64,000 nt of DNA from Armatimonas rosea (GTDB lineage: Bacteria > Armatimonadota > Armatimonadia > Armatimonadales > Armatimonadaceae): positions 682,001 to 746,000 of the forward strand of contig NZ_JACHGW010000001.1 of assembly GCF_014202505.1 (NCBI RefSeq), read 5' to 3'. The notes below the pieces were generated by a model. It worked only from the letters and a program-made list of their open reading frames with translations. It made no database searches and was not told where the DNA came from. Position 1 is the stretch's first letter. Every line of letters begins with the position of its first letter. This document shows, piece by piece, positions 8,509 to 15,349 of this stretch. The position numbers and the translations under genes were made by a program.

Positions 8509-9567
8509 ATGCGTCTTCTCCTTCACTGTCCCTTCGTTTTGGCAGAAAATACCGGGATTACACGCTACCTTCGCGGCCTCCTTCAGGCGCTAGCAACCCA
8601 CGCTCCCGACCTGGAGATCCACTGCCTGATCCCTCCTGGCTGGAAGGGGCTACCCGCGCCGCTTATTCCCGTCCCGCTGACCATCCACTCGGGCGGCGGC
8701 GCGGGCCACCCGCTGGGCCGGCTCCTGCGCGAGAGCGCTTTCTTGCGCCGTCTCCACCGAGAAAGCCCCTTTGACCTCTTCCACTCGCCCTTTGGCTACC
8801 TACCTTTCTCCGTTCCCACGCCCAGCGCGCTGACCGTCCCCGACCTACGCGCCCTCCGCCTCCCCCGCAGTTTCTCACCCCTCCGCGGGGCGTTCTTGCG
8901 GACACTCCTGCCCCGCTCGATCCGTCGCGCCGCCGCTATCTTGCCGATGTCGGAGTTCACGCGCCAGGAGCTCTTGACACTCGTGCCGGGCTCTACAGAA
9001 AAAAAAATATTTGTTGCCTATCCCGGAGTCGATGCCTTCTGGCAGGCTCCGGCCACCCCCGACGAGCGTGCGGCCTTTCGGGCGCGGCTCTCGGGCGCGT
9101 TTTTCTTGGCTGTGGGGACGCGTGAGCCGCATAAAAACTTAGGGGTGCTCCTTGCCGCTCTAGAGCAGCTCCCAGAGAAAAAGCTGGCGCTGGTGGGCCG
9201 GACCTTCGCCAGCGGCCGCCAGCAGGCCCTGACCCCACCGCCCAATGCGGTCTTTCTGGGGCGCTTGACCGACACCGAGCTACGCGCCGCCTACGCCGAG
9301 GCGCAGGCCTACTGCTTTCCGTCGCTCTACGAAGGCTTTGGCTACCCACCCTTGGAGGCGCTGGCGCAGGGCTGCCCCGTGGTCGCGGCCGATATCCCGG
9401 TCCTGCGTGAGGTTCTGGGAAGCGACGCGACCTTTGCCAGCCCCCACGACCCCGCCGCGCTGGCCGCGGCCCTCACAAGCGCCCGCTACACGCACGCGCC
9501 CTCCTACACCTGGGAGGCCCATGTCGCCGTCCTGCGCCGGGCCTACCATGCTATACTGTCCCCGTGA
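8509..9567 (+). CDS. Glycosyltransferase family 4 (352 aa)
   Basis: This is a GT-B retaining glycosyltransferase. The N-terminal half starts MRLLLHCPFVLAENTGITRYLRGLL, an acceptor-domain pattern with the GI(T/G) loop. The C-terminal GT1/GT4 domain has FLAVGTREPHKNLGVLLAAL, a FLGRLTDTELRAAYAEA step and SLYEGFGYPPLEALAQGCPVV, which carries the E-x7-E nucleotide-sugar motif (E in YEGFG and E in LEAL). It would add a sugar from an NDP-sugar in surface glycan assembly; donor and acceptor are unknown. Its stop codon overlaps the GTG start of the ABC ATPase gene (GTGA), although the functional link is not obvious. Confidence 0.88.
   Translation: MRLLLHCPFVLAENTGITRYLRGLLQALATHAPDLEIHCLIPPGWKGLPAPLIPVPLTIHSGGGAGHPLGRLLRESAFLRRLHRESPFDLFHSPFGYLPFSVPTPSALTVPDLRALRLPRSFSPLRGAFLRTLLPRSIRRAAAILPMSEFTRQELLTLVPGSTEKKIFVAYPGVDAFWQAPATPDERAAFRARLSGAFFLAVGTREPHKNLGVLLAALEQLPEKKLALVGRTFASGRQQALTPPPNAVFLGRLTDTELRAAYAEAQAYCFPSLYEGFGYPPLEALAQGCPVVAADIPVLREVLGSDATFASPHDPAALAAALTSARYTHAPSYTWEAHVAVLRRAYHAILSP
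9552..9557 (+). promoter_or_regulatory. Extended -10 for the ABC ATPase gene
   Basis: TATACT preceded by TGC (TG-n extended -10) lies inside the end of the glycosyltransferase gene, with six bases between it and the GTG at 9564. This predicts a leaderless ABC transporter mRNA. Confidence 0.4.
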
Positions 9568-11048
9568 TCACGCCCGACATTCAGCTGGATCGAATCACGG
9601 TACGCTTTGGCTCTGTCACGGCGCTGGACGATGTCTCGCTGGCCCTGCCGCCGGGGGCGCGTGTCGCGGTGGTGGGGGAGAACGGTGCGGGCAAGTCCAC
9701 CCTGATGAAGGTGCTCTTTGGCCTGCTCCCCCCCGACTCCGGCCAGCTACGCCTAGGCACGGTCCCCACCCGGTTTTCGTCCCCACGCGAGGCGATCGCC
9801 GCCGGGATTGGGATGGTGCAGCAGCACTTCGACCTGATCCCCTCCTTCACGGTCGCAGAGAATATCGTCTTGGGGGGCGAGCCACGCGCGGGGCTGCGCC
9901 TCGACCGTAACCGCGCGGAGGCCGAGGTCGCCTGGCTCTCCCGGGAGAGTGGCCTGCTGGTCTCCCCGACCCTGCGGGTGGAGGAGCTCTCCGTGGCGGC
10001 GCAGCAGCGGGTGGAGATCCTCAAGGCGCTCTACCGCAAGGCGCGTGTTCTTATTTTAGACGAGCCCACCGCGACCCTCGCCCCGCCCGAGGCACGGGAG
10101 CTCTGGGCCGCCACCCGCCGCCTCTCGGAGTCCGGGGTGACCGTGGTCTTTATCACCCACAAGCTCGATGAGGTCATGGCCAACGCGGACTCGGTGACCG
10201 TCCTGCGGCGCGGCAAGCACATCCTGACCACCAAGACCGCGGAGACGACCCCCCAGGAGCTGGCCGCGGCGATGGTGGGAACCCATCCCCCCAACCCCCT
10301 TCCCTCGCCCAAGGAAGGGGGGGCTCGCGTGGGCGAGGGCCTCACTCTGCAGAACCTGACCGTCCGCAACGACCGGGGGGCGGTGGCGCTCCGTGGGGTC
10401 TCGCTGACAGTCGCGCCGGGGGAGATCGTGGGGATCGCGGGGGTGGATGGCTCCGGGCAGACCGAGCTGATCGAGGCGGTGGTGGGGCTACGCGTGCCCG
10501 AGAGTGGGACGATCCAGGCTCCTGCTGCCGTCGGCTTTATCCCCGAGGACCGGCACCGCCACGCGGTGGCGCAGAGCTTCACGCTGGCCGAGAACGCCGT
10601 GCTGGGGCGGCACCGGGAGGCGGCGTTTGTCGGGGCGGGAGGGATCGTCAAGCAGGGCGCTGTCCGTGCGTTTCTGGCCGAGCGCGCGAGCGCCTTCGAT
10701 GTGCGTGGCGGCGACCAGCCCAAGGCCGCGATGCGCTCGCTCTCGGGCGGGAACCAGCAGAAGCTTGTCTTGGCGCGGGAGCTCTCCAAGAGTCCTAAAT
10801 TGATTGTCGCCTCCCAGCCCACCCGCGGTCTGGACTTCGCCGCCACGGCCTTCGTCCACGAGCGCCTCCGCGAGGCCGCCCAGAGCGGTGCTGCCGTGCT
10901 AGTGCAGTCGCTCGATCTCGCCGAGGTCCTCGCCCTCTCTGACCGCGTCGCCGTGCTTTTTGAAGGCAAACTTGTCGGCATTGTGGAGCGTGCGGAAGCC
11001 ACTGAGGAGCGAATCGGGGCGCTGATGACAGGAATATGGTACATTTGA
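9564..11048 (+). CDS. ABC importer ATPase with two NBDs, BMP/nucleoside type (494 aa)
   Basis: Two fused nucleotide-binding domains, as in the YufO/RbsA class that energises sugar and nucleoside uptake. NBD1: Walker A GENGAGKST (about 38-46), Q-loop MVQQHFDLIPSF, a degenerate signature LSVAAQQ, Walker B ILDEPTATLAP. NBD2: degenerate Walker A GVDGSGQTEL, then LSGGNQQKLVLARELS. QQHFDLIPSFTVAEN is typical of the BMP-family subgroup. Residues about 240-259, between the NBDs, are encoded by a palindromic repeat. The C-terminus (ALMTGIWYI) departs from the family just where base composition turns AT-rich, so the last codons probably come from the inserted island. The matching permease gene resumes at 14357. 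Neither a substrate-binding lipoprotein nor a second permease is nearby. Confidence 0.92.
   Translation: MITPDIQLDRITVRFGSVTALDDVSLALPPGARVAVVGENGAGKSTLMKVLFGLLPPDSGQLRLGTVPTRFSSPREAIAAGIGMVQQHFDLIPSFTVAENIVLGGEPRAGLRLDRNRAEAEVAWLSRESGLLVSPTLRVEELSVAAQQRVEILKALYRKARVLILDEPTATLAPPEARELWAATRRLSESGVTVVFITHKLDEVMANADSVTVLRRGKHILTTKTAETTPQELAAAMVGTHPPNPLPSPKEGGARVGEGLTLQNLTVRNDRGAVALRGVSLTVAPGEIVGIAGVDGSGQTELIEAVVGLRVPESGTIQAPAAVGFIPEDRHRHAVAQSFTLAENAVLGRHREAAFVGAGGIVKQGAVRAFLAERASAFDVRGGDQPKAAMRSLSGGNQQKLVLARELSKSPKLIVASQPTRGLDFAATAFVHERLREAAQSGAAVLVQSLDLAEVLALSDRVAVLFEGKLVGIVERAEATEERIGALMTGIWYI
10286..10340. repeat. In-frame palindromic repeat inside the ABC ATPase gene
   Basis: Nested inverted repeats: CCCTCGCCC (10302-10310) with GGGCGAGGG (10331-10339), and C-rich/G-rich arms around AAGGAAGGG. 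It encodes PPNPLPSPKEGGARVGEG in the linker between the two ATPase domains, a Pro/Gly-rich stretch not expected in this family. The composition and hairpin form match the other C/G-arm palindromes in the window. Confidence 0.65.
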
Positions 11049-11073
11049 GATGTATGTCGTCATAAATTATGAT
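11045..11073 (+). promoter_or_regulatory. Candidate promoter at the left edge of the AT-rich island
   Basis: TTGAGA (11045-11050) and TATGAT (11068-11073) are spaced 17 bases apart. The -35 overlaps the ABC ATPase stop codon. It would give a very short leader before the ATG at 11087. AT-rich DNA yields chance matches, so confidence is moderate. Confidence 0.4.
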
Positions 11074-11086
11074 AATGGAGCTGAAA

Positions 11087-13777
11087 ATGAAGATTGGTTT
11101 GCAAACAATAATAATGGGGAATGAAATATATGATATTGAAAACCTGTTTCGATCGGTAAGTGATTTAGGTTTCAGTGGTGTTGAGATCGCTCAGGATTTG
11201 GATAGAATTTATTTTAAAAATGGCAGAAAAGCAAGTTTAAAAGATATTTTTTTGATGTCTGATGATTATGGGGTTAGTATAGCAGGTATTTGTTCAGGGG
11301 ATTTGCTTGATAGATTAGATAAATGCATTGAGTGTGGTAGGTTTCCTGATTATATGTACATTGATAGGGTGTTTTCTGGTAGTGATGGTGACATAGGCAA
11401 ATTGTTCTCTGTTTTCGAGGAAAGATCAAGTTTTATTGCATTGCACCAGCATGTCTATAAGAACTGTGACCGGTTTTCAGTTATCGTTGATCAGTTTAAA
11501 AAATATCCAAAATTGAAGTGGATACCTGATACTGCTCATTTATTTATTGCGGGTGATGATCCTATCGAATCAATACAATTACACTACGATAAAATCGTAA
11601 GTATACATTTGAAGGATTGGACGCAAGCATATGGACGTTCATTTCATCGATATGCTAAAGGATTTACATGTTTAGGGGATGGGGATTGTCCTGTGAAAGA
11701 GGTATTGGATTTAGTTATCTCTAATAAATATAAAGAATGGATTATAATAGAACAAGATTATGTTAATTTTGGGACTGTGACGGAATGTATTTCAAAATCA
11801 ATGTTTTGGTTGTCTGATCAAATGCATGAAAAAAGATCTGATATTTTAGAAAAAGAAAAAATATGTGCTTTGAATGACCTTTTTGAGGATGTGAATGATA
11901 TTCATAGTCGGAATACTGCTTCTAAAAAAGAATTTGAGTTGATAAATTTGATTTATAGTAACGTTAGGATGCCTTTGTCGGATTTCTATAGTCTAATTGC
12001 TAAAGCAATATGTACACTTTTTAAGTCTGAAGTTGTCGCACTATGGTCATGTCACCCGAATCGAAACGATCTGTGTTTACTCGCTAGTTACGCAAAAAGA
12101 AGACATATTGATGGAATCATTGATGGTTTACCTAAGGTTCTGAGCAAAGTTAAATATTTAGACACTATTGGTTATACGATAGATTCTATGAAATTATGGA
12201 ATAGTATTGTAGGATCTAGTGAGTATAGTCTTCATCCATGGGAAGATATTCTTCGTGACGGTAACTCGGATAATGTATATTATATACCAGTACATAATTT
12301 ATATAATATGAATCAAATGAGATTGGTTATAGCTGTTTATTCAAATGTGAAAATAGATGATCAACTTGTTAAGACCGAGAAAAATTCATTTTTATACCAT
12401 GTGACAAATGCCATAGATTTGTGTTTGGAATGCCAATGTTCGTATAGATCCAATTTAGTTAATTCTGAAGCAGATAAGTCTGTTGATATCGACGATTTTA
12501 TTTTTAGACTGCGGGGAATCTTGATTAAGTCTATTAATTGCATGGGGTCTTCGTTGTTTTTAGTGAATAGAACCGGTGATAGGTTGGAATACTATGGTGA
12601 TGAAAAGAATATATATTGGAATAGTAAGTTTAAATTTTATGGTCCAAATTTAAAGAATCGTAAACGCGGGTTTACTTTAGATGCTTGGGTTGCCAAACGA
12701 CCTCTTGTTATTGCACATGCCCAGATACCAGAATTTAATGGTGGTTTTAAACCATATGTTCCAACTTCAACAGAAATAGGTGATGGTATTAATAAGCACA
12801 TCGATAATGTTTTAATTGTTCCTATTATATCTATATCCCAGGACAGTAAAGTAAATACACCTTCTGTTATCGGAGTAGTTAGATGTAGAAACAAAAAATG
12901 TAGAAAATCGGATAATATACAAAAAAAGGAAGATTTTATCTATTGCCCGATTTTTACAGATGATGATGCTGCTATCGTAGATGTGATACTTCATTCTTCA
13001 GCACCGAAAATTGAACTTATGATGGCTGATAATGAAAGAAGGAAGTCTGTTGGGAGGATAATACATGAGATAAAACATCCAATAGCTGCTTTAAGTAAAA
13101 ATATTGATCTCTTGGCTTTTCAAGTGACGAATGGCTTGAATCCTATGGATTATGTCTATTTTAAAGATATCGAAGGATGGTTTGAATATTTCATGTGTGT
13201 GTTTAAAAATGCTCATTTTTATGGTGTTAACGAGTTGAGAAGAATTCATAACTTGAACACAGAATACAAAAAATCTCTTATATGGAGAGATGTATTGTCA
13301 AGTATATCGATATGGACAAAACCAAGTATTGAAGATAGGGGATTTAATCAGGCAGACTTAAATTGTAACTTGGAAGACTTTTATCAGATTCCTGAAATTT
13401 GGATAGACGTAAATTTAATTCGTATAGCGATATTTAATGTTATATCGAATGCCATAAAGTACTCTTATAATGATAAAAATAGGTTTAATATAATTCTGAC
13501 TGCTTCTGTTGATGAGAACTTTTATAAGATTCATTGTCGTGACAAAGGCCCTGGTATACATGAAGATTACCGGGAGATGATTTTTGAAGAAGGTATTCGT
13601 GGGCCTGATGAAGTCAATCAGTATGTGCGTGATGGTCTCGGCCTTGGGCTTTGGGTAGTAAGAAAGATAATGGAAGCTCATGATGGACATGTAGCTGTTA
13701 CTAATTTGTATCAACCAACTGAACTAACACTCTTTTTTCCGAAGAAACTAAGGTACAATGCTCCATCTAAAAAATGA
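11087..13777 (+). CDS. Hybrid sensor: IolE-like TIM barrel - GAF - GAF - histidine kinase (896 aa)
   Basis: Residues 1-245 resemble sugar-phosphate isomerase/epimerase (AP-endonuclease-2, IolE-like) TIM barrels: MKIGLQT strand 1, HQHVY (120-124), IPDTAH (Asp148, His151), SIHLKDW (His174), a LGDGDCP loop (about 196-202) and IIIEQD (Glu222), which together could supply the metal-binding Glu/Asp/His set. Residues about 285-450 and 465-645 look like two GAF domains; the second is the more convincing. The kinase has H-box IIHEIKHP (His660), N-box NVISNAIKYS, G1 DKGPG, F-box and G2 GLGLGLW, all intact. There is no transmembrane segment, so it is cytoplasmic. The ATG at 11087 is preferred over 11069 and 11075 because GGAG precedes it and the barrel begins there. 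The partner receiver gene follows after 28 bases. Confidence 0.8.
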   Translation: MKIGLQTIIMGNEIYDIENLFRSVSDLGFSGVEIAQDLDRIYFKNGRKASLKDIFLMSDDYGVSIAGICSGDLLDRLDKCIECGRFPDYMYIDRVFSGSDGDIGKLFSVFEERSSFIALHQHVYKNCDRFSVIVDQFKKYPKLKWIPDTAHLFIAGDDPIESIQLHYDKIVSIHLKDWTQAYGRSFHRYAKGFTCLGDGDCPVKEVLDLVISNKYKEWIIIEQDYVNFGTVTECISKSMFWLSDQMHEKRSDILEKEKICALNDLFEDVNDIHSRNTASKKEFELINLIYSNVRMPLSDFYSLIAKAICTLFKSEVVALWSCHPNRNDLCLLASYAKRRHIDGIIDGLPKVLSKVKYLDTIGYTIDSMKLWNSIVGSSEYSLHPWEDILRDGNSDNVYYIPVHNLYNMNQMRLVIAVYSNVKIDDQLVKTEKNSFLYHVTNAIDLCLECQCSYRSNLVNSEADKSVDIDDFIFRLRGILIKSINCMGSSLFLVNRTGDRLEYYGDEKNIYWNSKFKFYGPNLKNRKRGFTLDAWVAKRPLVIAHAQIPEFNGGFKPYVPTSTEIGDGINKHIDNVLIVPIISISQDSKVNTPSVIGVVRCRNKKCRKSDNIQKKEDFIYCPIFTDDDAAIVDVILHSSAPKIELMMADNERRKSVGRIIHEIKHPIAALSKNIDLLAFQVTNGLNPMDYVYFKDIEGWFEYFMCVFKNAHFYGVNELRRIHNLNTEYKKSLIWRDVLSSISIWTKPSIEDRGFNQADLNCNLEDFYQIPEIWIDVNLIRIAIFNVISNAIKYSYNDKNRFNIILTASVDENFYKIHCRDKGPGIHEDYREMIFEEGIRGPDEVNQYVRDGLGLGLWVVRKIMEAHDGHVAVTNLYQPTELTLFFPKKLRYNAPSKK

Positions 13778-13805
13778 ACCTAGTTCCGGTAAGGTGTAAG
13801 TAAAC

Positions 13806-14333
13806 ATGTCTATGGTGAAGGTCTTGATTATTGATGATAATCCTAGTACGGTTATGCCTGTAGCAGAAGCGTTAAGGATACTCGATTATCAAGTTCTAGT
13901 TTGTAATAGTGTTGATGCAGCGCATCCATTTTTGCGGTCTGGATTCGTTGATATCTTTATCATTGATAAATCGATGCCGGGAGGGGACTTATTCCCTGAT
14001 AACAGAGACGAAATGAAAACTGGGAGATTGGTTTATGATGAAATAAGAAATGTTTATTGTTTTAGTTGCATTCCTGTTATTATATTAACTAACTATAAAG
14101 ATGGTTATAATGCTGACTATTCAGAATTGACTGAAAAAGATATATTGGTTCGGATTATCGACAAAGAAGCGAAGATTAACGAGATTGTAAGCCAGATTAA
14201 GGTTCTGCTGATTGCATCTAATAAGGTTAGGAATAATATTGATACAATGATTATTAAATTATTTAGTGAAAATATGGAGAATGGTAAGGTGAATTGGCGT
14301 TGTGAGGTGCATAGTCATAAGGTGTCTGTGTAG
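13806..14333 (+). CDS. Receiver-only response regulator (175 aa)
   Basis: A CheY-like receiver covers residues about 3-137: acidic pocket Asp10/Asp11 in LIIDDN, phospho-acceptor Asp54 in IFIIDKSMPGG, Thr95 in IILTNYKDG, and Lys120 in RIIDKE. Between Asp54 and the fourth strand there is a longer loop than usual (GGDLFPDNRDEMKTGR). The last 38 residues form a polar, probably helical tail without a recognisable DNA-binding or enzymatic domain. All catalytic residues are present, so it should accept phosphate from the kinase encoded just upstream. Output is presumably by protein contact. Codon use is as AT-rich as the kinase and unlike the flanking ABC genes. The ATG at 13812 (third residue) is an alternative start. 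Confidence 0.85.
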   Translation: MSMVKVLIIDDNPSTVMPVAEALRILDYQVLVCNSVDAAHPFLRSGFVDIFIIDKSMPGGDLFPDNRDEMKTGRLVYDEIRNVYCFSCIPVIILTNYKDGYNADYSELTEKDILVRIIDKEAKINEIVSQIKVLLIASNKVRNNIDTMIIKLFSENMENGKVNWRCEVHSHKVSV

Positions 14334-14356
14334 AGCGCTACACGAAAGCACCATCA

Positions 14357-15349
14357 ATGCGTGGCCACATTTTTACAGCAATAGTAAGTGCGCTCTTGCT
14401 GGGCGGACTGGCGATCGCGGCGATTGGACAGAGCCCGCTGGCGGCCTACCAGGCGCTCTGGGAGGGCAGTGTGGGAACCCCCGATGCCTGGGGACGGACG
14501 CTTGGGCAGGCGACTCCGCTCCTGCTGACAGGAACCGCAGTGGCAGTGGGGCTCGCGGTGGGGCTGTTCAATATCGGGGCTGAGGGACAGATGGCCGTGG
14601 GAGGGCTTGTGGGCGCGGTTGTGGGGGCTACGGTGCCCGGAGTGCTGGCGGTGCCGCTAGGGCTGCTGTGCGGGGCGCTGGTGGGCGCTGCGTGGGCCTG
14701 GCTCCCGGTGTGGCTGAAGCTCAAGCGCGGGGCGCACGAGGTCATCACGGCGATCCTGCTTAACTATGTCGCCCGCAACGTCACCCGCTGGCTCACGACC
14801 GTCCCGCTCAAAGACCCCACGGGCCAAGCGCCCCAGACCGCCGAGGTCCACGCGACCCTGCCACGCCTCGCCGCCGGCCACGATGTTCACGCGGGGCTAC
14901 TCCTCGGGCTGGTGGCCGTGGCCACGGTCGCGTGGGCACTCTCCCGAACAGTCTGGGGCTATGAGACGCGGCTGGTGGGGCAGAACAAAGACGCGGCACG
15001 GGCGGCGGGGGTGAATGTCGAGCGGGTGACCCTGCGGGCCTTCTTGCTCTCGGGAGCGCTGGCCGGGCTCGCCGGCGCGGTGGTGGTGCTGGGAGTCGTG
15101 CCCTTCCACCGCTTCCCCGCCGACTTCTACGGGATCGGCTACGGCTTCGATGGCCTCGCGGTCGCGCTACTGGCGGGGAGCCAGGCCTGGGCGGTGCTGC
15201 CCGCCGCCCTGCTCTTTGGTGCCCTAGGCGCAGGTGCCGACCAGATGAGCTTCGCCACCGAGACCCCCAAGCAGCTCGCCCAAGTGGTGCAGGCGCTCCT
15301 CATCCTCGGGCTCTCTGCACGCTTTGTCTGGAAAAAGCGCCGCAAATAG
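14357..15349 (+). CDS. ABC importer permease, BMP/nucleoside type (330 aa)
   Basis: A polytopic inner-membrane permease of the BPD_transp_2 family, with about eight to ten hydrophobic segments. The family hallmark LFNIGAEGQMAVGG is near residue 70, followed by AHEVITAILLNYVARN and the GQNKDAARAAGVNVERV cytoplasmic coupling region. It pairs with the two-NBD ATPase at 9564-11048, with which it would normally be contiguous; here the AT-rich island separates them. The ATG at 14357 lies where high-G+C sequence resumes, and no good ribosome site precedes it, consistent with loss of the original upstream context. The usual second permease (about 300 aa) does not follow. Substrate is likely a nucleoside or purine by family, not shown by context. 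Confidence 0.9.
   Translation: MRGHIFTAIVSALLLGGLAIAAIGQSPLAAYQALWEGSVGTPDAWGRTLGQATPLLLTGTAVAVGLAVGLFNIGAEGQMAVGGLVGAVVGATVPGVLAVPLGLLCGALVGAAWAWLPVWLKLKRGAHEVITAILLNYVARNVTRWLTTVPLKDPTGQAPQTAEVHATLPRLAAGHDVHAGLLLGLVAVATVAWALSRTVWGYETRLVGQNKDAARAAGVNVERVTLRAFLLSGALAGLAGAVVVLGVVPFHRFPADFYGIGYGFDGLAVALLAGSQAWAVLPAALLFGALGAGADQMSFATETPKQLAQVVQALLILGLSARFVWKKRRK

Follow-up and report, generated by a model that had tools for sequence, protein, structure and literature searches.

What might a histidine kinase read through a whole enzyme-type TIM barrel placed at its N-terminus? The sensory part of a histidine kinase is usually a small domain (PAS, GAF, CACHE) or a periplasmic binding fold, and kinases with many sensor domains are well known. 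The question is raised by a gene of Armatimonas rosea that lies within the 64,000-nucleotide stretch of DNA analysed here (the window), where the following features were defined:

9564-11048, forward strand: ABC importer ATPase with two ABC domains, its last codons (..MTG-IWYI) altered by insertion
11035-14356: low-GC insert (33-35% GC in 64% GC surroundings) between the importer ATPase and permease genes
11087-13777, forward strand: histidine kinase gene, 896 aa, with the order TIM barrel, GAF, GAF, histidine kinase
11087-11821, forward strand: IolE-like TIM barrel, residues 1-245 (PF01261, model, fold matches and invariant columns)
11972-12361, forward strand: first GAF-like region, about residues 296-425, poorly conserved (3% invariant columns), with predicted strands and helices
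12479-12946, forward strand: second GAF-like region, about residues 465-620, from the model and a GAF match at the equivalent place in the relative from genome G029
12947-13351, forward strand: dimerisation and phosphoacceptor helices, residues 621-755, with an HE-K-HP motif (H660 codon 13064-13066)
13352-13756, forward strand: HATPase_c domain, residues 756-890 (PF02518, 53 bits, cut-off 26.4)
13806-14333, forward strand: response regulator, receiver only, 175 aa (PF00072, 33.9 bits, cut-off 30.2)
14357-15349, forward strand: ABC importer permease (BPD_transp_2), start codon kept

The kinase occupies a forward-strand open reading frame of 902 open codons (11069-13777), within which translation starts at the ATG at 11087; GGAG lies 6 nt upstream, and the homologues begin at the same site. 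The protein is soluble and has no transmembrane helix, as its maximum Kyte-Doolittle 19-residue mean is only 1.44. A first-pass annotation, made from the sequence alone, had described an IolE-like TIM barrel fused to a histidine kinase. The barrel motifs that it quoted are all present in the 896-aa protein, in barrel order, and the architecture is confirmed by the PF01261 match, the predicted structure, the fold matches and the kinase core. An assembly or sequencing error as the source of the fusion is ruled out by the identical domain order in other genomes.

Residues 1-245 matched Pfam AP_endonuc_2 (PF01261) and no other family, with E 9.2e-15 and 55.4 bits against a cut-off of 31.1, and three relatives scored 39.6-49.8 bits. 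Structure prediction likewise returned the proposed TIM barrel: the AlphaFold model of the barrel alone (pLDDT 87.8, pTM 0.88) has eight strands alternating with helices (residues 2-6, 31-34, 64-68, 89-91, 116-120, 144-146, 172-175 and 218-222), and the best 50 PDB folds found by Foldseek are all xylose-isomerase-like TIM barrels, led by Art22, AsbF and IolE (TM 0.65-0.77). The model of the whole protein, weak beyond the barrel (mean pLDDT 57), nevertheless contains a pair of GAF-like alpha/beta regions, then a long signalling helix and the ATPase domain; its structural matches are to IolE-type barrels as well as to bacteriophytochromes and kinases of the HK853 type.

Among solved structures, the closest in sequence is IolE from Lactobacillus plantarum (3cny; 1.6e-8, and 3.1e-10 in a profile search), followed by Art22. 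The window barrel resembles IolE (2-keto-myo-inositol dehydratase; TIGR04379; PDB 3cny, 9zmu) in its fold and in an equally ordered series of motifs comprising the strand-5 histidine motif, DTxH, HxKD, the LGDG/PGDG loop and W...E(Q)D, but IolE is a stand-alone enzyme whereas the window barrel is the front end of a kinase. The isomerase Art22 (PDB 8z1i, 9koj) comes first by fold (TM 0.77 by query) and has the HLKDW motif in common, yet it too stands alone and is only 18-19% identical. Members of the D-tagatose 3-epimerase and AsbF 3-dehydroshikimate dehydratase family have the same class of barrel but a different pocket, which in epimerase barrels is of the two-glutamate type, and are not kinases. 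A fusion that has such a barrel for its N-terminal half has a precedent in PDB 5hmq, where a xylose-isomerase-like barrel is joined to a 4-hydroxyphenylpyruvate dioxygenase-like domain, although the partner in that case is an enzyme-type domain rather than a kinase.

The likeness to IolE could mean that the barrel senses myo-inositol catabolism specifically, with 2-keto-myo-inositol as its ligand. The IolE model TIGR04379 ranked first among NCBIfam models for the window barrel and was the best match in four of the five barrels tested, but the scores of 24-41 bits (40.8 for the window barrel) do not reach the equivalog cut-off of 290, and neither IolE nor IolD was found above cut-off in any of the seven carrier genomes. 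Inosose is disfavoured as the ligand because the carriers lack both proteins above cut-off while some control genomes have them (IolD in 3 of 14 genomes, IolE in two), and we consider inositol-specific sensing very improbable.

The fusion is not confined to the window. Among 291 Armatimonadota genomes, five others carry it: G027-G029, which represent one genus, G097, and G043, whose copy is divided between two contig ends. When 84,980 species genomes were scanned, the Armatimonadota loci came up again, labelled as Chthonomonas-, Armatimonadetes- and Fimbriimonas-type MAGs, together with a single Pedosphaera-type Verrucomicrobiota MAG whose locus encodes the barrel, the GAFs, the kinase and an adjoining receiver gene; the scan used two narrow peptide patterns, and the member count is therefore a lower bound. 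No further members were found near the Pedosphaera genome in 388 genomes of its phylum and 320 of its order. When a model of the barrel was run against the 291 genomes, members scored 303-346 bits and the next best protein 76 bits; the non-member proteins matching it were nearly all stand-alone frames of about 250-350 aa, and no stand-alone copy of the same barrel subfamily was present in these genomes. A model of the kinase half gave 631-860 bits for members and 120 for the next best protein, with the same member genomes. Both halves make up a discrete family, remote from all other proteins, and since the two models pick the same genomes by wide margins, barrel and kinase have stayed together as one unit.

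Behind the barrel, the GAF-like regions of the first-pass annotation are visible in the window protein as the two alpha/beta regions of the model. They have no Pfam match in the window protein itself, but the G029 relative matches GAF in two stretches (E 1.1e-16). The kinase core that had been proposed is real, for in addition to the HATPase_c match, H660 and P665 in the phosphoacceptor region are invariant among the relatives, as are N784, N788, D819, G821 and G823 of the N and G boxes. HisKA falls below cut-off in the relatives, and long helices are predicted at its place. The G097 kinase (L018:7606-10029) has an unusual H-box, THDCAFPL instead of HExKxP. In its core and its GAF-helix-GAF-kinase layout, the protein resembles cytosolic GAF-containing histidine kinases of the HK853-like and phytochrome types, from which it differs in its input: none of the matched structures or families has a TIM barrel there.

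The receiver gene lies directly downstream of the kinase gene in the window, G029, G043, G097 and the Pedosphaera genome. Its D11, D54 and K120 are invariant among these five partners, D54 (codon 13965-13967) being the phosphoacceptor. The window receiver has no DNA-binding domain, so its output is presumably by protein contact, and the partner receivers of the relatives (137-345 aa) carry no recognised output domain. Several further features of these partners were observed. In four of the five receivers (13806-14333, L019:7354-7767, L028:5111-5596 and L009:1342-2379), an MPPG/MPGG...TG insertion follows the phosphoacceptor, possibly marking a receiver subclass; the G097 partner (L018:10042-11040) retains the motif only in part. 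That protein and L009:1342-2379 each end in a C-terminal region of about 200 aa without a Pfam match, which may be a novel output domain. In genus g20, a divergent response regulator with fused GAF domains (L019:3113-4702) adjoins the fusion kinase and is possibly part of its circuit.

The setting of the two genes in the window shows that they are an insert. The importer that they interrupt is of the BMP/ribose type, and an empty site is found in a genome of the same genus (G008, L034), where the stop of the ATPase gene and the start of the permease gene overlap (..GCAAGCCAATGAGAGCA..); the insert is placed exactly at this overlap, with the permease ATG kept. ATPase and permease are also adjacent in four further members of the family. 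The copies in G097 (44% vs 54% GC) and Pedosphaera (50% vs 63% GC) are likewise AT-richer than their surroundings, whereas those in G027-G029 and G043 are not. A search around the insert for target-site duplications and terminal inverted repeats returned only chance-like repeats, promoter and terminator patterns within it were not clearly above chance expectation, and no plasmid match covered 80% of the query. For the G097 copy, which lies downstream of uvrC, 19 family genomes were compared for an empty site, and the downstream genes are not syntenic in them. The explanation that we hold to be somewhat better than an even bet, taken as a whole and including a sugar-sensing barrel, is that kinase and receiver are a horizontally acquired two-gene two-component system.

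The first-pass annotation also suggested damaged or foreign nucleic acid as a possible ligand, and this found no support. In such a reading, the barrel would act in the manner of endonuclease IV, perhaps in defence. In its favour, the unit is mobile and patchy in distribution, PF01261 does include endonuclease IV, and PADLOC candidate models match both kinase and receiver. Yet no endonuclease IV family appeared among the NCBIfam matches at E <= 0.1 and no such structure among the best 50 folds, the PADLOC matches span only the generic ATPase or receiver domain rather than the full length, and the locus has neither an effector gene nor a defence neighbourhood. No copy of the full protein was found in phage or viral collections, the phage matches listed at E <= 1e-3 being to the kinase domain only. 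We judge this reading exceedingly improbable, and the assignment to a known anti-phage system was rejected on the same grounds of generic-domain matches and missing effector, defence neighbours and viral copies.

The barrel pocket offers the most direct view of what might be sensed. An alignment of seven barrels, at 27-32% identity to the window barrel, has 32 invariant residues, among which the pocket contributes Q6, E33, Q36, R76, H120, D148, H151, H174, K176, W178, Y189, F193, E222 and D224. Every predicted metal residue is included: D148, H174 and E222, which the first-pass annotation had singled out, are retained in all seven, none being lost in the homologues aligned, and predicted strands 6, 7 and 8 have them at their C-terminal ends. 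H120, D148, H174 and E222 align with the IolE motifs YHHH, DTGH, HFKD and WIVVE, respectively, and are positioned at or beside the C-terminal ends of strands 5 to 8, the catalytic side of such barrels. From these strand positions we infer that the four residues form a putative divalent-metal site at the barrel mouth. The strand-5 residue is a histidine in the window barrel and in IolE, while the epimerases have a canonical glutamate; because of this replacement, metal binding is proposed by analogy only, and epimerase chemistry is unlikely; a dehydratase-like or binding-only role would fit better. Across four divergent full-length proteins, 14.7% of positions are invariant in the barrel and 16.3% in the ATPase domain, far above the 3.1 and 4.5% of the GAF regions and a linker with none. 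Judged by these aligned positions, the barrel is under constraint as strong as that on the kinase catalytic core.

Such conservation could indicate that the barrel is a working enzyme, a sugar or keto-sugar isomerase, dehydratase or hydratase whose turnover or product sets kinase activity. Invariance of all the predicted metal residues together with H151 and K176 exceeds what a mere binding domain needs, the nearest solved folds (Art22, IolE, AsbF and DTE) belong to enzymes, and the strand-5 histidine is as in the IolE type. Against this, the carriers do not place enzymes of any consistent pathway in an operon with the gene, the protein is rare and belongs to signalling rather than metabolism, and the two-glutamate pair of the epimerases is missing, leaving a working enzyme as a minority possibility. 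Slightly more doubtful is the fuller version, in which a live metal-dependent sugar enzyme has its turnover read by the kinase and the two-gene unit is mobile between phyla; if true, the sensor kinase would report metabolic flux, not concentration. The barrel might instead be a structural or protein-docking platform without a ligand, a role for which the common regulation of kinases through protein partners and the receiver without an output domain could speak. The invariant polar pocket residues, however, are typical of metal or substrate binding and not of docking alone, which makes a pure platform improbable.

An acquired two-component system with the barrel as its input for a sugar-like molecule is the reading to which we lean, by a little more than an even chance. 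A sugar-like small molecule (a sugar phosphate, keto-sugar or cyclitol) would bind the metal site formed by H120, D148, H174 and E222, and the resulting change in the barrel would reach the dimerisation helix by way of the linker and both GAF regions, altering autophosphorylation of H660. Phosphate would then move to D54 of the receiver, which would act by binding another protein. In the window genome, the pair is probably co-transcribed with the nucleoside/ribose-type ABC importer, and its position hints that the signal may follow the import of sugar or nucleoside material. The neighbours do not name the ligand, because they differ among carriers: the ABC importer in the window, pfkB and uvrC in G097, GH32 in G043, and nitronate monooxygenase and purple acid phosphatase in G029.

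The first-pass annotation knew of no described kinase with this architecture, and a search of 5.39 million open-access papers turned up none in which such a barrel is combined with a histidine kinase. As an input module for these kinases, a whole TIM barrel of enzyme type that keeps its active site would be new; it is inherited as a unit with its receiver. The kinase allows a direct test of whether a sugar is read by binding or by conversion, and its barrel would offer a metal- and sugar-gated module for sensor design. For the bacteria that carry it, the intact active-site residues of the barrel and the mobility of the gene pair suggest an internal sugar-like molecule that is sensed by means of an enzyme fold.
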